Below, piece after piece: positions 14,537 through 43,419 of a DNA stretch of 64,000 nt (its first letter is position 1; each line of letters starts with the position of its first letter). The position numbers and the translations under genes are program-made. The notes under the pieces are model-generated. The model worked only from the letters and a program-made list of their open reading frames with translations, did no database searches and had not been told where the DNA came from. The stretch lies in contig NZ_JACHWY010000002.1 of NCBI RefSeq assembly GCF_014191715.1, positions 186,001 through 250,000 of the forward strand. The letters are read 5' to 3'. The DNA is from Litorivivens lipolytica. Its GTDB lineage: Bacteria > Pseudomonadota > Gammaproteobacteria > Pseudomonadales > Spongiibacteraceae.

Positions 14537-16750
14537 TTAGGCCGCCCTCACCTCTATCTTGGCGCCGTTGACCACACTGGTGCCAGACGGTACGTCCAGT
14601 ACCGTCCAGTCAATCAGATCATTGCAACTCACGCCGGGACTTTTCTCTCTGGCCGTGCTTTGACCGGTATCGCTAAAGCGGTGGCCAAAGCCGTGGGGCA
14701 GGCTGACCACGCCGGGCATCATGCTGTCACTGATTTCCACCTCTACGGTCGCGCTGCGTCCGGCGCCACTGACGATGGCATGGCCACCCTCACTCAGTCC
14801 AAGACTCTCTGCATCATCGGGATGAACCAGCAGGGTGCAGCGATTCTTGCCGCGCACATACTGGTTGATATTGTGGAGCCAGGAATTCATATCTCGAATA
14901 TGACGGCGGCCGATCAGGCGAAAGCCGCTGTTTGCGGTTTGCATGGCTGCGGTCAGGCGCTCTACGTCATCGGTGATCAATGCCGGAGCGATATTCAGTC
15001 GCTTGTCCGGGGTTTGCAGTAAATCCGGCAGGCGAGGTTGCAGAGGGCCAAAGTCCACGCCGTGTTCTGCAGCTTTGATTTTCTGAAGATTCCAGCCTTC
15101 GCCTTGTTCAAAGCCATCGCCGTGAGGTCCTGCGCGCAGCATCATATCGAGCAGGCGTTCCGGCCCACTGTGTTCGCTGGTTGCGGTTTTAATCTTTTCG
15201 GCATCGAGCCCGGTAAATTTTGGTGATGAAGCAATTTGCGCGGCGAGCCCCTCTACCATCATGGCGTGCAGGTCATCCGCAGCCATACCGTTAATCCGCG
15301 CTACCAGTTCCGTCATGATTTCGTACTGATGCCGAGCATCCGAATCGGGTTCAAAAATCTGGGGCGAATAGCGTGCGAAGTTTCTGACGGCTGTAGTCTG
15401 AAACAGGAAGTCGTAATTGCTGTGCTCGAGTTGCGAGGTTGAGGGCAGAATGTAATCGGCCAGACTGGTGGTTTCGTTGATGTAGAAATCGAGGGCAACG
15501 ATCAGCTCCAGACCTTGCATGGCCTCGCGGATGGCTTCGCCGTTCGGTACAGACAGAACCGGGTTGCCGGCAACGGTAATCAGCGCACGCGCTTTATCGT
15601 CGCCCTGATAGGCCAGTTCCTCGGCCATCAGTGAGGCCGGCATCATACCCATGTATTCGGGAAAGCCGCGCACGCGGGTTTTGAAACGGCCGTGGCCCAC
15701 TTCGCTTTGCACGGGTTCTGCTGGTGGAGGTAATTCTGTCGCCGCTTGCGGAAACATGGCGCCGCCGGGGGCATCGAGTCGCCCTTGCAGCAGGTTCACA
15801 ACATCTACCAGCCAGCTGGCAAGGGTGCCGAATTCCTGAGTGCAAAGACCGATGCGGCCGTAGAGAACAGGCGACTCAGCCTGATTAAAGGCGTTGATTA
15901 GATCGCGCAATTGAGCGGCGGGTACGCCGGTAATGTCGGCGGTATTTTCCGGTGTAAATGCTTTGGCCAAATCGCGCACGGTGTCGACGCCGTCGACGAT
16001 ATTTTCCAGTCTGCCCAGTGAGACTTTATTGTCTTCAAATAAAACATTTACCCACGCAAACAACAGATAGGCGTCGGTGCCGGGTTTGATAAACAGATGT
16101 TGGTCAGCAATCGCTGCGGTTTCGGTGCGGCGGGGGTCAATGGTCCACACCTGCCCACCGCGCTCGCGAATGCCTTTTAATTGCGCTTCGGCATTGGGTG
16201 CTGACATCAGTGAACCCTGAGACACCAGTGGGTTGCCGCCCATGCAAACAAAAAAGTCGGTTCGCTGGATGTCTGGGATGGGAAAGACCCAGGCGTTGCC
16301 GTAAAGGAGCTCGCAGCTGAGGTTTTTGGGTTGTTGGTCTACCGAGCCCGCCGAGAAAAAGCGCTCGGTGTTGAGCATTTGCGTGAATAGCTCGGTATAG
16401 ACCATGCTACTGAAGTTATGGCCATTGGGGTTGCCGTAGTACATGGCAATACTGTCTTTGCCATGTTGCTCACGCAGCTTGCCGAGCTTCTCGCCTACTT
16501 CGGAAAGCGCTTGTTCCCAGCTAATGGTCTGCCACTGGTCATCCACTTTTTTAACCGGCTGGCGCAGACGCTCCGGATCTTCGTATACATAGCGAAAGGC
16601 CTGGGATTTTGCGCAGACGTAGCCCTTTGATCGTTCATCCTCCGGGTCGCCCTTAATCGAGATAACCTGTTTGGATGCCCGGTCGACCTCCAGCACCAGG
16701 CCGCAGCTGGCTTCACAGGTAGGGCAGCTTCGATAGAGAGTTTCGGTCAT
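14537..16750 (-). CDS. molybdopterin-dependent oxidoreductase with [4Fe-4S] site
   Basis: A 737-residue DMSO-reductase-superfamily enzyme. The N-terminal iron-sulfur motif is Cys9-x2-Cys12-x3-Cys16-x29-Cys46, followed by Lys48. The molybdopterin-binding segments follow (DDQWQTISWEQAL, CMGGNPLVSQGS, WTIDPRRTETA, LINAFNQAESPVLYGRIGL). The C-terminal MopB-binding domain contains FRLIGRRHIRDMNSWLHN. There is no Tat signal, so it is predicted cytoplasmic. It resembles the stand-alone oxidoreductases annotated as formate-dehydrogenase-like or nitrate/biotin-sulfoxide reductase-like; no electron-transfer partner genes are adjacent, so the substrate cannot be assigned. No in-frame TGA/selenocysteine is seen. 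Confidence 0.88.
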   Translation of the reverse strand: MTETLYRSCPTCEASCGLVLEVDRASKQVISIKGDPEDERSKGYVCAKSQAFRYVYEDPERLRQPVKKVDDQWQTISWEQALSEVGEKLGKLREQHGKDSIAMYYGNPNGHNFSSMVYTELFTQMLNTERFFSAGSVDQQPKNLSCELLYGNAWVFPIPDIQRTDFFVCMGGNPLVSQGSLMSAPNAEAQLKGIRERGGQVWTIDPRRTETAAIADQHLFIKPGTDAYLLFAWVNVLFEDNKVSLGRLENIVDGVDTVRDLAKAFTPENTADITGVPAAQLRDLINAFNQAESPVLYGRIGLCTQEFGTLASWLVDVVNLLQGRLDAPGGAMFPQAATELPPPAEPVQSEVGHGRFKTRVRGFPEYMGMMPASLMAEELAYQGDDKARALITVAGNPVLSVPNGEAIREAMQGLELIVALDFYINETTSLADYILPSTSQLEHSNYDFLFQTTAVRNFARYSPQIFEPDSDARHQYEIMTELVARINGMAADDLHAMMVEGLAAQIASSPKFTGLDAEKIKTATSEHSGPERLLDMMLRAGPHGDGFEQGEGWNLQKIKAAEHGVDFGPLQPRLPDLLQTPDKRLNIAPALITDDVERLTAAMQTANSGFRLIGRRHIRDMNSWLHNINQYVRGKNRCTLLVHPDDAESLGLSEGGHAIVSGAGRSATVEVEISDSMMPGVVSLPHGFGHRFSDTGQSTAREKSPGVSCNDLIDWTVLDVPSGTSVVNGAKIEVRAA

Positions 16751-38106: not shown

Positions 38107-38135
38107 TTGCAGAGTAAGTCATCTAGATTTATATT
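38107..38135 (+). promoter_or_regulatory. candidate promoter of the acyl-CoA mutase operon
   Basis: TTGCAG (38107-38112), a 17-base spacer and TATATT (38130-38135) lie 30 bases before the mutase ATG. The mutase has a strong ribosome binding site, GGAGGT. Confidence 0.55.
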
Positions 38136-38165
38136 AAAGGTGGTTTACTAACTGGAGGTGGTGCC

Positions 38166-39875
38166 ATGTCTCGCGCATCCGAAAAACTCAAAGCCCCGAA
38201 CGACAGCGGCGAAACCCTGTGGCGCACTGAATACTACGAGCCGGCCATCGCCGATACCGGCGAGCGCAAAACCCGCTTCCAGACCCAGAGCCTGCGCTGG
38301 GATATCAAGCCGCTCTATACCCAGGCCGATCTGGATGCCATCGGTTTTGATCCGGACACCGATCTCGGCCTGCCCGGCACCTATCCTTATACCCGTGAGA
38401 CCCGGCCTGCCGGTTATCGGGGGGATCTCTGGGCCATGACTCAGGTCAGCGGCTTTGGCTGCGCTGAAGATTCGGCCAAGCGCTGGGCCTATATGGTGGA
38501 GCAGGGGCTGGACTCCATCATTGTGGAGTTTGATCTGCCGACCACCAACGGTTACGACTCCGATAACCCTCTGTGTCGAGGTGAAGTGGGGCGGGCCGGG
38601 ATGGCGCTCGATACTCTGCAAGACATGGAAGATGCCCTCGATTTCCCGCTGGAAAAACTGAAAAACATCACGTCCGTGTGCAACGCGCCGCAACCGGTCA
38701 ATCTGGCGATGCTGATCAAGGCCCTGCAGCGCAAGGGCAAAAAGCTGGAAGACATCCGTCTGATGATGCCCAACACCATACTGGTGGAGTACACCTGTGT
38801 CGGGCGCTATATCTACCCACCGAAACACGGCCTGCGCCTTGCCTGCGATGTGATCGAATACTGCATGCAGCACCACAGCAACTGGATGCCGCTCAATATT
38901 GTTGGCGCACAGATCTACGCGGCGCGGGGCAATCCGGTGCAGGAAATTGCCTACTCCTTTGCCATGGCGCGGGCTTATATCGACGAACTGCTGGCCCGCG
39001 GCCACGACATCAACCGGGTCGCGCCGATGGTGAGTTTTATCACCGGTATTGATATGGATTTCTTCGAAGCCATTGGCAAGCTGCGAGCGTATCGCAAGGT
39101 GTGGGCTCGACTGATGAAGGAAACCTATGGCGCGACCGCTGAAGAGGCGCTGAAGCTGCGCTTGATGAGCAGCCCCGGCACCATGTCCATGGCCCTGCAA
39201 CAACCGCTCAATAATATCGCCCGGCTCGGCATAGAAATGCTGGCCTGTGCCCTGGGCGGCGGCGCACACACCATCAACACGCCGCTCTACGATGAGGCTC
39301 ACGCCCTGCCCAGTGAGGATGCCATTACTATCGGCGCGAACATCCATCATATTGTTGCCCAGGAAACGGGGGTGGCCGATACCATCGATCCGCTGGCGGG
39401 TTCTTACTACGTGGAGTACATGACCAAGCGCATGGAAGACGAGGTGTTTGCCGAGCTGGAAAAAATCGAAGCCATGGGTGGCGCGCTGGGTGCACTGGAA
39501 GCCGGCTATTTTCAAAGTGAACTGGCAGAAGAACAGATCGCCATGAATCGGGATTTTCATACCGGCGAACGCAAGTTTGTGGGCGTGAACTATCGCGTTA
39601 AAAAAGACGAGCAGCGCGAGATCGAGATCTTCCGTCATGACGAGGCTGCTGAGGCGCGTCAGATCGAGCGGCTGAACAAGGTTAAAAGCCGCCGCGACGA
39701 GGCTGCCGTAGCACGGGTTCTGGAAAAAGTCCGGGAGGCGGCGCGCGGCAATACCAATATGGTCGAGCCGATGCTGGAAGCCGTGGAACTGTATGCCACC
39801 CACGGCGAACTGTGTGATGCCATGCGCGACGTGTTTGGCGAGTATGACCCCAATGCGCTCACCCCTACCCTGTAA
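38166..39875 (+). CDS. coenzyme-B12-dependent acyl-CoA mutase, large subunit, substrate unassigned
   Basis: A 569-residue TIM-barrel subunit of a methylmalonyl-CoA-mutase-type radical enzyme; the B12 domain is on the next gene. Family landmarks are intact: LPGTYPYTR (69-77), FDLPTTNGYDSDNP (122-135), RGEVGRAGMALD, RYIYPPKHGLRLACDVIEY, SSPGTMSMALQQPLNN, GGAHTINTPLYDEAHALPS. Active-site positions of methylmalonyl-CoA mutase are changed: Arg80 where Tyr89 is expected, Pro202 for Gln197, Val212 for Arg207, and Ala248-Gln249 for Tyr243-His244 (manual alignment from memory to the Propionibacterium enzyme). Loss of the carboxylate-binding Arg makes methylmalonyl-CoA an unlikely substrate. Isobutyryl-, 2-hydroxyisobutyryl- or pivalyl-type, or a new, acyl-CoA is possible. 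First gene of a co-oriented operon; the small subunit follows after 12 bases. Confidence 0.9.
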   Translation: MSRASEKLKAPNDSGETLWRTEYYEPAIADTGERKTRFQTQSLRWDIKPLYTQADLDAIGFDPDTDLGLPGTYPYTRETRPAGYRGDLWAMTQVSGFGCAEDSAKRWAYMVEQGLDSIIVEFDLPTTNGYDSDNPLCRGEVGRAGMALDTLQDMEDALDFPLEKLKNITSVCNAPQPVNLAMLIKALQRKGKKLEDIRLMMPNTILVEYTCVGRYIYPPKHGLRLACDVIEYCMQHHSNWMPLNIVGAQIYAARGNPVQEIAYSFAMARAYIDELLARGHDINRVAPMVSFITGIDMDFFEAIGKLRAYRKVWARLMKETYGATAEEALKLRLMSSPGTMSMALQQPLNNIARLGIEMLACALGGGAHTINTPLYDEAHALPSEDAITIGANIHHIVAQETGVADTIDPLAGSYYVEYMTKRMEDEVFAELEKIEAMGGALGALEAGYFQSELAEEQIAMNRDFHTGERKFVGVNYRVKKDEQREIEIFRHDEAAEARQIERLNKVKSRRDEAAVARVLEKVREAARGNTNMVEPMLEAVELYATHGELCDAMRDVFGEYDPNALTPTL

Positions 39876-39887
39876 GCGAGAATAGAG

Positions 39888-40283
39888 ATGGACCAACCAA
39901 TCAGAATCCTTCTTGCCAAAATCGGTCTGGATACCCACACCATTGGTATCACCGTACTGGCGAAAGAACTGCGCGATCGGGGTTTCGAAGTGATTTTTTC
40001 AGGCCTTAAACAAACCCCGGAGAAAGTCGCCCACGCCGCGCTGCAGGAAGATGTAGATGTGATCGGCGTGAGCTGCCTGTCGGGGGGGCATATGACTCAC
40101 CTGAAAGTACTCGCCGAGAAAATGCGGGAAATGGGACTGGACGACCGCATTCTGATTGTTGGCGGGGTGGTGCCAGAAGAAGATGTGGAACCACTGAAAG
40201 CCCTCGGTGTGGATCAGGTGTTCACCATGGGCGCGAATATGGATGACATTGCGGCTTACCTGCGCAGCGCTGTTTCTGCCTGA
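39888..40283 (+). CDS. acyl-CoA mutase small subunit, cobalamin-binding
   Basis: A 131-residue B12-binding subunit. The base-off/His-on signature DxHxxG is present as DTHTIG (Asp15, His17, Gly20), with His17 the predicted lower cobalt ligand. SCLSGGH stands for the usual SxL...GH loop and IVGGVVPEEDVEPLKALGV for the GG loop near the nucleotide tail. The DGHDRG wording of common mutases is replaced by DTHTIG, so this is a divergent branch, as is the large subunit. Its stop overlaps the start of the G-protein gene by one base (TGATG), implying translational coupling. Confidence 0.92.
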   Translation: MDQPIRILLAKIGLDTHTIGITVLAKELRDRGFEVIFSGLKQTPEKVAHAALQEDVDVIGVSCLSGGHMTHLKVLAEKMREMGLDDRILIVGGVVPEEDVEPLKALGVDQVFTMGANMDDIAAYLRSAVSA

Positions 40284-41239
40284 TGCGTCGCCCGATCACA
40301 CTTGATGACCAATGGCGCTCGGCAGTGCAGGCGCGCGACACGGCTGTATTGGCGCGCACCATTACAGCCATTGAACGCTCCCCGGAATTTCTGCTGCAGC
40401 TCTCGCGAGAGGTTTTTTCCGTCGCGCCCGTCAACAGTATCGGTATTACCGGCGTGCCCGGTGCCGGTAAGTCGACCCTGCTAAATCAGCTGATTGCGCA
40501 CTATCGCGCACAGGACAAGCAGGTTGCCGTTTTGGCGGTTGATCCGAGTAGTGTGCAGACCGGCGGTGCCGTGTTGGGTGATCGCCTGCGGATGCAGGAT
40601 CACGCGCTCGATGACGGTGTTTTTGTACGCTCGCTATCCACCAAGGGCCAGCTCGGCGGCGTATCGGAAACCACCTTTATCACCGCGCAATTCCTGAAAT
40701 TCGCTGGTTTTGACCGGGTTTTTATTGAGACGGTGGGGATCGGTCAGAACGAACTCGATATTGTGCGCGTTGCTGATGTGAGCGCGCTGGTGTTTATCCC
40801 AGGCGGCGGCGATTACGTGCAGGGTATTAAATCCGGTGTGATGGAAGTGGGCGATGTTTTTGCCATCAACAAGGCCGATCTTGACGGCGTACGCGCGTTG
40901 GAGAAAGTGCTGCAACTGGAGGCCCACGACCGGGAAAACAAAACCGGCTTCGCAACCACGGTTTGTCGTACCAATGCCATCAGTGGCGACGGGGTTCCCG
41001 CGCTGGTCGACGCCTTGGAAGCTGCCTTGGGTTCACCGCAGGCCAGTGCCCGCCGCGACAGCCAGCTCAGAGCCTTTTCGGAACTTCTTTTGAGTATCGA
41101 GCTGCGTCAGCGTTGGCTGAAACCTTTTGTCGCGGGCGACAAGGGGCTTGAGTTTTTCAGTGCGCTGGAGCGCGGTGAAAAGCAGCCAGCCGATATTGTT
41201 GAAGCGTTTCACGCGAGCGTGCGGAACGCGAACGGCTAG
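40283..41239 (+). CDS. MeaB/ArgK-type G-protein chaperone of the acyl-CoA mutase
   Basis: A 318-residue G3E-family GTPase that protects and reloads B12 mutases with adenosylcobalamin. Walker A is GVPGAGKST (57-65), followed by AVDPSS, ETVGIGQNE (base-2/switch region) and NKADLDG (G4). Length matches MeaB. Its fixed place after both mutase subunits, with a one-base overlap, indicates a dedicated chaperone. Downstream of its stop lie two small imperfect hairpins before the regulator gene. Confidence 0.93.
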   Translation: MRRPITLDDQWRSAVQARDTAVLARTITAIERSPEFLLQLSREVFSVAPVNSIGITGVPGAGKSTLLNQLIAHYRAQDKQVAVLAVDPSSVQTGGAVLGDRLRMQDHALDDGVFVRSLSTKGQLGGVSETTFITAQFLKFAGFDRVFIETVGIGQNELDIVRVADVSALVFIPGGGDYVQGIKSGVMEVGDVFAINKADLDGVRALEKVLQLEAHDRENKTGFATTVCRTNAISGDGVPALVDALEAALGSPQASARRDSQLRAFSELLLSIELRQRWLKPFVAGDKGLEFFSALERGEKQPADIVEAFHASVRNANG

Positions 41240-41306
41240 CCCCTCAAGCCGTGCGCAGCGCGATATGAGGCGCTACACTTGCGCGCTTTATATTTGGAAG
41301 TCATTT

Positions 41307-42239
41307 GTGAGCGATCTGGCACAGTTACTGGAAGACTATCGAGAGTCGGCACTTGGCGTTGTCCTCGTGACGCTGGTCGCCGATTACGAAGATCGTTTTC
41401 TCAAGGCCTACGGTGAACAGGGATTTTCCGATATTCGCCGCTCTCATGGGTCTGTGCTGCGCCACCTCGATGCCAGCGGCACGACATTGTCTGAATTAGC
41501 CCTGCGTGCGGGTGTCAGCAAACAGGCTATCGGTAAAACGGTGCGTCAGCTCGAAGCACTCGGTTACCTCCATATCAGCACAAGCCATACGGACAAACGA
41601 GCGCGACTGGTGCGGTTTAGTTTGCGCGGCGACCGCCTGGTCAGCGCCTCTAACCGCGTGGTGGAAAATATCCGCCGTCAGTATCGGCAGCAACTCGGTA
41701 GCGATACTTTCCAGCGCCTATTTGAATTGTTGCAGGGCCTGACGGACGCGCTGGGTCGGCAGCCACAGGTTGCCAGCAGTGGCGAAGCGCAACGCTTTCT
41801 ACACTTTGGCCGCCTGATGGTGGAACTGGCCGGCGATTTTGAAAAGCGCCTACTGCAGCATCTATCGGCAGAAGATGCTGCAAAACTCTCGCAACCTGTG
41901 CTCAGCCAGTTTTTCTATTGTCGCGCTGCCCCCATGACCGTCTCTGAGCTGGCGGAGAACCAACCATTGACGGTGCAGGCGGTCAGCCTGACTAGCCGGG
42001 CCATGGTTAAAGCCGGGCTGTTGGCGGTCAGAGAAAGTCCGCGCGATAGCCGGGCTAAAGAACTCTCTATCAGCGAAAGAGGCTGGAACTGGCTGAAGTC
42101 GGTTGTCCGAGCCAACCGCCAGATTCGTGAACAATACGCCGAGGCTTTGGGGCAGACTGCTCTGGAGGAGCTGGATCAGATTTTTCGTACCCTGCTGAAG
42201 GCGCTGGTCGAAAGGAAACCTGAAAAAGTCGTAATCTGA
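41307..42239 (+). CDS. tandem double-MarR-domain transcriptional regulator
   Basis: A 310-residue protein with two MarR-like winged-helix domains in one chain. Domain 1 is centred on TLSELALRAGVSKQAIGKTVRQLEALGYL (about 59-108) and domain 2 on MTVSELAENQPLTVQAVSLTSRAMVKAGLL (about 209-258). Each has a wing of the S..DKRAR/S..DSRAK type. MarR proteins normally dimerise from single-domain chains, so this is a covalent pseudo-dimer. The GTG start at 41307 has GGAAG upstream; longer open frame into meaB is not conserved-looking. Position between mutase genes and the downstream gene suggests that it controls this operon, perhaps in response to an acyl-CoA. Confidence 0.82.
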   Translation: MSDLAQLLEDYRESALGVVLVTLVADYEDRFLKAYGEQGFSDIRRSHGSVLRHLDASGTTLSELALRAGVSKQAIGKTVRQLEALGYLHISTSHTDKRARLVRFSLRGDRLVSASNRVVENIRRQYRQQLGSDTFQRLFELLQGLTDALGRQPQVASSGEAQRFLHFGRLMVELAGDFEKRLLQHLSAEDAAKLSQPVLSQFFYCRAAPMTVSELAENQPLTVQAVSLTSRAMVKAGLLAVRESPRDSRAKELSISERGWNWLKSVVRANRQIREQYAEALGQTALEELDQIFRTLLKALVERKPEKVVI

Positions 42240-42297
42240 GCCCTTGGCCTATCCTCGCTAGACTGACTGAATAATAAACATGTCGTGAGGACTGCTC

Positions 42298-43389
42298 ATG
42301 TTGTCTCAGATGGACGATTACCCCCTGCATCAGATCGCCGATGTTATCCGCTTTGTAGGCACTTCAGATCGCAACTTTTACGACCGCTACTATTTCAACC
42401 TGCATTCGTCGAGCGACGATCTGTTTATGGTAATGGGTCTGGGGCAGTATCCAACCCTCGGCGTTCAGGACGCCTTTGCCGTAGTTCGCCGGGGTGACAG
42501 CCATCATGTGGTACGGGCATCTCGTGAGTTGGGCGATGACCGCATGGATACTTCCGTAGGGCCACTCCGGGTTGAAGTACTGAAAGGTCTGGAGAAAGTG
42601 CGTTTTGTGGTCGAGAACAGTCCGGAGCATCCGATCTCAATGGATATTGTCTGGGAAGGTGCAATCCCTGCCTTTCTCGAGCCGCGCCAGTACATTCGCA
42701 AGCACGGTCGAGTGTTGTTTGATTCCATGCGTTTTGCCCAGACCGGATACTGGACCGGCACGCTGCGCGTAGGCGACGAAACCTTTGAGGTAACACCGGA
42801 TCGCTGGAAGGGCAGTCGAGATCGCTCCTGGGGGATTCGCCCGGTGGGCGAGCACGAACCCCAGGGGATTCACGAAGGTACGCCGATTATGGAGGGCATG
42901 TGGAATTACTGCCCGATGCAGTTCGATGACTTTTCCATTATCTATATTCTGAATGAACACAACGACGGCACCCGCGTACTGGAAGAAGCCGTGCGTGTTT
43001 GGAATGATCCGGAAAGAGAGCCGGAGTGGTTGGGGCGGCCGGAGCACGAACATAATCTCGTGGTTGCCAAACCCTATCAGGCCTTTATTGATTCAGCGGT
43101 GATCCGTTTCCCTGATGCACCGGAAGGGCCCATGGAGGTAAAGGTGACGCCCTTGACTCATGTGTGGGTGATGGTCGGCACAGGGTATGGTTTGGAAGCT
43201 GACTGGAAGCACGGCATGTACAAGGGTAAGCAAGTGGTTGAGAGCTTTAGCCTGGACATGGAAAAAGACAAAGACCGCATGTTCGGCCTATGTGACAACG
43301 CCGCCCGTTTTGAGCTGAACGGGCACGTGGGCTATGGACTGTTTGAGTATGGGTTCTTTGGTGAGTTCGAAAAGTACGGTGTGAAGTAA
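42298..43389 (+). CDS. AttH/CrtC-like conserved protein (DUF7064/7065-like)
   Basis: A 363-residue protein that I recognise only by resemblance to the lipocalin-like AttH/hydroxyneurosporene-synthase group, through the strongly conserved [16 protein letters not shown] segment in its middle. There is no signal peptide or membrane helix. Related proteins are often encoded near steroid, terpenoid or other lipid-catabolic genes; function is not established. It has a GAGG ribosome binding site. Same strand as the mutase operon, 58 bases after the regulator, and closed by a palindromic terminator. It might bind or hydrate a hydrophobic acyl substrate, but that is speculation. Confidence 0.7.
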
Positions 43390-43393
43390 GATT

Positions 43394-43419
43394 GGTGCGG
43401 GCGATGCATCGCCCGCACC
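43394..43419. terminator. 26-base perfect palindrome, bidirectional terminator
   Basis: GGTGCGGGCGATGCATCGCCCGCACC is a perfect palindrome flanked by GTAAG/CTTAC extensions. It lies between the stops of convergent genes (43389 and 43426). There is no long T-run, but the stem is very stable. Confidence 0.7.

Follow-up and report, generated by a model that had tools for sequence, protein, structure and literature searches.

An operon in Litorivivens lipolytica encodes what its sequence marks as a member of a rare and so far undescribed family of adenosylcobalamin (AdoCbl)-dependent mutases. The operon lies in a 64,000-nucleotide stretch of the genome (contig NZ_JACHWY010000002.1, positions 186,001 to 250,000), referred to here as the window and used for all coordinates unless another record is named. 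Three of the products, the mutase large subunit (LSU), the small subunit (SSU), and a MeaB-type G protein, form a trio that recurs in other bacteria. On balance, we favor the reading that this trio is a new family of AdoCbl carbon-skeleton mutases that act in the catabolism of steroids or of polycyclic isoprenoids close to them. Relatives in the clade lie near steroid-degradation genes, and the enzyme therefore probably performs an unrecognized step in steroid-like breakdown.

The LSU gene (38166-39875, + strand; 569 amino acids) belongs to the PF01642 superfamily (491 bits, with the TIM-barrel LSU fold) and also to TIGR00641; against NF006944, it scores only 367 bits versus a cutoff of 876. 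Both hallmarks of an AdoCbl-dependent mutase are present: a subunit with the DxHxxG motif (TIGR00640) and, at E377, the equivalent of Glu370 (reference residues follow the numbering of P. shermanii methylmalonyl-CoA mutase, MCM). Phylogenetic placement used IQ-TREE (LG+R4) and included 2-hydroxyisobutyryl-CoA mutase (HCM), three MCM references, IcmF, and a group resembling ethylmalonyl-CoA mutase (ECM). The window LSU falls in a separate clade of 18 tips, with support of 100/100 and a stem of 0.67 substitutions per site, and MCM (100/100), HCM (99.7/100), and the ECM-like group (100/100) all form clades without it. It also lies outside the two fused IcmF sequences, the tree holding no split IcmAB or PcmAB reference, and lacks the Gln of the Phe/Gln substrate pair. 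The earlier note on this DNA had held that the mutase fits no known type and had proposed an LSU phylogeny as a check; the tree agrees, since the LSU is nested in neither MCM nor HCM, lies outside every characterized clade that could be placed, and has an active site that matches none of them.

Comparison with individual enzymes sharpens this placement. MCM (34-37% identity) has in common with the window LSU the TIM-barrel fold, Glu370, the DxHxxG B12 motif, and a MeaB partner; the window enzyme differs in its split subunits and in having V94, V212, and Q249 for Tyr89, Arg207, and His244, and these residues and the tree rule out an MCM. HCM (HcmAB, PDB 4r3u) is likewise split into LSU and SSU, has its own MeaB-type protein, and carries an acidic residue at the Asp117 position, but is only ~36% identical, forms a separate clade, and differs at the equivalents of His244, Gln197, Arg87, Ser114, Gln208, and Ile90. 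The tree and the V94/V212/E121 set, as opposed to Ile90/Gln208/Asp117, rule out an HCM. IcmF, also solved with pivalyl-CoA (PDB 5cjw), shares the superfamily fold and radical chemistry; the window mutase is unlike it in being unfused, in lacking Gln207, His244, and Gln197, and in an identity of ~29% over the C-terminal part, and tree and residues again argue against an IcmF, the two fused sequences serving as the references for this group. An ECM is disfavored by the same kinds of evidence as far as its label holds: the LSU lies outside the L107/L113/L114 group, which is presumed to be ECM from its MeaA motifs. The genome of the window strain encodes a separate full-length MCM (C1:575854-577392; open frame of 723 amino acids, 808 bits), and the window LSU is therefore an extra mutase.

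The substrate side of the active site has been extensively remodeled, as seen when 19 clade sequences (some near-identical or from the same contig twice) are set against 68 other mutases. The His244 position holds Gln in 19/19 clade sequences (window Q249) and His in 67/68 others; the Gln197 position holds Val (13) or Pro (6; window P202) where all 68 others have Gln. Thr195, present in 68/68 others, is replaced by His, Met, or Gln (window M200), Arg87 (65/68) by Thr, Ala, or Met (window Thr92), Ser114 (66/68) by Ile, Phe, or Tyr (window I119), Arg283 (63/68) by Tyr or Met (window M288), and Gln330 (58/68) by Ser in 19/19 (window S336). Val occupies both the Arg/Gln207 and the Tyr/Ile/Val89 positions in 19/19 clade sequences (window V212 and V94), and Glu occupies the Ala/Asp116 position in 19/19 (window E121), the place taken by Asp117 in HCM. 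Q249, V212, V94, E121, and S336 are thus invariant throughout the clade; A248 and P373 are further window residues of the remodeled site. Glu370 is retained by all mutases compared (window E377; 18/18 of the clade).

The substrate and CoA contacts of P. shermanii MCM are positions 75, 78, 82, 85, 87, 89, 114, 195, 197, 207, 244, 283, and 285, and the window LSU retains Ser285 alone (S290) among these 13. Because most of them differ, it cannot be taken for granted that the substrate is a CoA thioester: the name acyl-CoA mutase, used in the earlier note, is an assumption. Perhaps CoA thioesters are no longer the substrate type of the rebuilt site. All 21 split mutases aligned have Arg85, and part of the contact with CoA could thus persist. 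An AlphaFold2 model of the LSU has a normal fold (pLDDT 84.7, pTM 0.88), with TM scores of 0.91 to HCM 4r3u and 0.88 to MCM. Purifying selection acts on those operon genes for which dN/dS could be estimated (0.042 and 0.048 for the LSU against two congeners, 0.027 for the fifth gene). From the retention of Glu370 and the B12 motif under such selection, we infer a working AdoCbl enzyme whose B12 side is conserved and whose substrate side has been rebuilt.

Remodeling was also seen in other split mutases. One at locus L021:7186-8847 (G028:C4:174200-175708), with its own SSU and MeaB, lies outside the window clade and is strongly changed (His244 to Asn, Arg207 to Cys, Arg87 to Phe, Ser114 to Leu, and Glu at 116). 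A further uncharacterized group (loci L086, L060, L106, L108, and L111) has Tyr243 changed to Ala and His328 to Gly; at L108 and L111, it stands beside genes for an enoyl-CoA hydratase, a CoA-transferase, and a TRAP transporter.

Open reading frames and family profiles bear out the five-gene, co-oriented operon that had been proposed (38166-43389, + strand), with gaps between successive genes of 12, -1, 67, and 58 bases. Downstream of the LSU, the SSU (39888-40283, +; 131 amino acids) matches TIGR00640 (136 bits) and PF02310, its translation reads D15-x-H17-xx-G20, and its PDB matches are the HCM small subunit and 2yxb. The MeaB-type G protein chaperone (40283-41239, +; 318 amino acids) passes TIGR00750 (242.2 versus a cutoff of 240.75 bits), matches PF03308 (235 bits), carries the Walker A motif GVPGAGKST, and has PDB matches to MeaB/MMAA. 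A regulator with two MarR domains follows (41307-42239, +; 310 amino acids, GTG start; PF12802/PF01047 in two stretches), also found in both congeners, and the fifth gene, P0005, closes the operon (42298-43389, +; 363 amino acids).

The flanking elements that had been suggested fared less evenly. No match to a sigma-70 consensus promoter was found 5' of the LSU; a block at ~38129-38152 on the + strand (TTTATATTAAAG...TTTACTA) is identical in three congeners while the flanking DNA has diverged, and is a promoter or operator candidate. The proposed terminator exists as an 11-bp hairpin between convergent genes (43394-43419, listed without a strand); its T-run lies on the - strand, which suits the convergent gene no less than this operon. 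The order LSU-SSU-MeaB-MarR-lyase is common to the window strain and congeners G001 and G002, in which the MeaB and MarR genes are separated by an MFS transporter gene and the lyase is followed by a HAD gene (TIGR02247, epoxide-hydrolase N-terminal-like); in the congener operons, these genes are seen at L016:12329-13645 and 15746-16387, and also at L015. Both are absent from the window-strain operon, and no HAD homologue occurs elsewhere in that genome at E<=1e-5; this absence is probably a recent loss. Elsewhere in the window, 30309-31247 matches TIGR03620, whose annotation is F420-dependent LLM oxidoreductase, the host being a gammaproteobacterium.

The fifth gene ties the operon of the window genus to steroids. 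P0005 matches NCBIfam Rv3169_fam (NF053593; 415.7 bits versus a cutoff of 150). Over 359 amino acids, it shares 59.9% identity with 25-phosphosteroid lyase (25-PSL; PDB 9fzn, also 9g2i), an enzyme of anaerobic cholesterol degradation. It groups with homologues of 55-68% identity, apart from paralogues of ~30%, and is, at the level of sequence, an orthologous homologue of 25-PSL. It had been described as AttH/CrtC-like, which its sequence does not support: in Pfam, nothing matches at E<=5 besides DUF7064 (0.04). The lyase identity is also more informative than the one it replaces. In Sterolibacterium denitrificans, 25-PSL activity strips phosphate from 25-phosphosteroids, which a kinase produces from a tertiary alcohol (PMC8449060, PMC11061730). 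Unlike that system, the window operon contains no kinase gene, whether for 25-hydroxysteroids or otherwise, and no Mo-hydroxylase gene, and P0005 is a predicted lyase. Hydroxyl removal by phosphorylation and elimination is also the chemistry of ACAD10/11 and LvaAC, a comparable system in which the HAD type of the congener operons is fused to the kinase in ACAD10, at its N-terminus (PMC11342911). The lyase of the window operon differs in coming from an unrelated family and in having no adjacent kinase. A second Rv3169-family paralogue is present in the same genome (C1:1414486-1415550), ~3 kb from a cluster of CoA-transferase-like, HMG-CoA-lyase-like, and flavin-monooxygenase-like genes.

The clade is rare, with matches above 1000 bits in 2/369 genomes of the class, 1/398 of the phylum (the window genome only), and 5/294 of the order. 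Its hosts are Zhongshania, a Halioglobus metagenome-assembled genome (MAG), other gammaproteobacterial MAGs, Sphingobium, Novosphingobium, and Sphingomonas, and Myxococcales/Deltaproteobacteria MAGs, and it is a scattered catabolic trait, probably spread by horizontal transfer. LSU, SSU, and MeaB are clustered in nearly all clade loci with sufficient sequence, the exception being one genus (G028, G495, and G544) whose LSU has neither partner nearby. At the loci of that genus (L019, L076, and L077), an SGNH-hydrolase-like gene lies downstream, and a PHP-domain-like gene lies upstream at L019. The operon had been called self-contained; its five genes are real, but the term is too strong because LSU-SSU-MeaB alone persists outside the genus, with downstream partners that vary. 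The comparison of neighborhoods, another of the checks proposed, accordingly gave a trio conserved across nearly all of the clade and remaining partners that differ by lineage: the lyase, HAD, and MFS genes in the window genus, and often EthD-domain, SDR, TonB-receptor, P450, and AraC-regulator genes elsewhere. At L025, an EthD gene is placed between LSU and SSU; as a universal mutase partner, EthD is ruled out, there being none in the window genus.

On the Sphingobium plasmid pTomTYG46a, a catabolic island holds the trio (record 573.6-576.7 kb) together with ferredoxin, P450, FadJ-like, and hydroxysteroid-dehydrogenase-like genes and an APH-type kinase adjoining an acyl-CoA dehydrogenase. A 9,10-seco steroid cluster lies ~20-31 kb from the trio (hsaC, hsaD, the CoA-transferase ipdAB, echA20, acyl-CoA dehydrogenases, and a thiolase). 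The island is also on an S. herbicidovorans plasmid and in the bile-salt degrader Chol11, where most of its genes are 94-99% identical, and in two sphingomonad MAGs, a KshA-like oxygenase gene lies 3-6 kb upstream of the trio. The steroid links come from separate lineages: the window genus, the Sphingobium plasmids, Chol11, and the two MAGs. The idea of a lipid- or terpenoid-derived substrate gains from this context, which points to an isoprenoid-derived (steroid) one. The kinase and dehydrogenase genes, side by side at L080:12214-14452 and in Chol11 (L030), resemble a split ACAD11/LvaAC pair; the best match of the Sphingobium kinase among named enzymes is the ACAD11 kinase domain rather than a steroid kinase. 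The mutase is present in TomTYG65, TomTYG72, TomTYG74, and TomMM15, strains that appear by name in a study reporting alpha-tomatine degradation by all of its Sphingobium isolates (PMC10653915); the main text of that study does not mention TomTYG46. Bile-acid side-chain enzymes of sphingomonads have been described as unknown (PMC8399759). The main texts of the Chol11 and tomatine papers do not mention the mutase, and in the literature searched, steroid degradation and an acyl-CoA mutase never appear together in one paper. The window genome itself carries a cluster for steroid ring degradation, ipdA-ipdB-ipdC-echA20-ACAD-ACAD-fadA6 in order (C2:637-645 kb), and isolates of Spongiibacteraceae and Halieaceae that degrade steroids are on record (PMC5790920). 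That the window host is a steroid degrader is plausible, and no more than that.

By analogy with the parent family, the SSU would bind AdoCbl base-off, and MeaB would load and repair it using GTP. Homolysis of the Co-C bond in the LSU barrel would yield a 5'-deoxyadenosyl radical; this would abstract a substrate hydrogen, and a neighboring group would then shift 1,2. The substrate would be bulky and hydrophobic, with a Glu/Gln pair replacing the usual carboxylate and thioester contacts. In the window genus, the mutase product or precursor would be handled together with the 25-PSL-type enzyme, the MFS transporter, and the HAD protein; the 25-PSL-type enzyme would expel phosphate from a phosphorylated tertiary alcohol, and the kinase, which was not found, would be encoded elsewhere. 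The double-MarR protein would probably control the operon. A bolder version, possible if tentative, is a B12 radical mutase derived from acyl-CoA mutases that has abandoned CoA thioesters and rearranges the steroid or polycyclic isoprenoid skeleton itself, for example by an acyl shift beside a ring ketone. To our knowledge, no described steroid catabolic pathway contains such a skeleton rearrangement.

Several observations weigh against the steroid reading or the family placement beneath it. The lyase is a neighbor of the mutase in one genus only, and its homologues occur without the mutase in other genomes. ipdA is present in 15/19 mutase-free relatives; it thus fails as a discriminating marker, and a host's ability to degrade steroids does not point to the mutase in particular. 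The list of MCM CoA contacts is general background on the P. shermanii structures and not a calculation from their coordinates. The branching order deep between mutase families is weakly supported, and biochemical or expression data for clade members were not found. The P450 partners, camphor-P450-like in Sphingobium and CYP120/CYP51-like in Zhongshania, would also fit terpenoids. This last point feeds a rival in which the family is equally new and acts on a branched lipid or a non-steroid isoprenoid (a mono-, sesqui-, or triterpenoid, or a polyprenyl acid), nearby steroid genes being part of a general catabolic island. The P450s on the Sphingobium plasmids and in Chol11 are indeed closest to camphor monooxygenase, and the island genes are generic (the kinase-dehydrogenase pair, FadJ-like, epoxide-hydrolase-like). 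We nonetheless find this reading rather doubtful given the 25-PSL homologue in the operon of the window genus, the 9,10-seco cluster 20-31 kb off on the plasmid, and the KshA-like genes that two further lineages have close to the trio.

The remaining alternatives concern the enzyme rather than its substrate class. An ordinary acyl-CoA mutase whose substrate is bulky or hydroxylated, with re-engineered CoA contacts and HCM-like chemistry (3-hydroxy to and from 2-hydroxy-2-methyl acyl-CoA), would account for HCM being the closest solved structure by sequence and fold, for acidic Glu121 at the Asp117 position, and for Arg85 being invariant among all split mutases aligned. It is unlikely: the LSU lies outside the HCM clade and has lost the equivalents of His244, Gln197, Thr195, Arg87, Ser114, and Arg283, nearly all of which HCM, MCM, the ECM-like group, and IcmF retain. 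Membership of PF01642/TIGR00641 would suit a second MCM or an HCM orthologue, which we regard as highly improbable in view of the 723-residue, 808-bit MCM in the same genome, the subthreshold NF006944 score (367 against 876), the absence of Tyr89 and Arg207, and the position outside both clades. Loss of the catalytic histidine equivalent, and the genus without SSU or MeaB near the LSU, could instead indicate a decayed or non-catalytic relative. A dN/dS of 0.04, new residues invariant in 19 sequences from several classes, and a trio that stays together in nearly all other loci speak against decay so strongly, the first two in particular, that we set it aside.

If its substrate is not a CoA thioester, the enzyme would be categorically new. 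The clade also probes which part of the active site is indispensable to B12 radical chemistry, as the characterized mutases in the tree all share the histidine and the thioester contacts. For sphingomonads and marine gammaproteobacteria, the trio provides concrete candidate genes for unexplained side-chain and ring steps in the catabolism of steroids, bile salts, and steroidal alkaloids.

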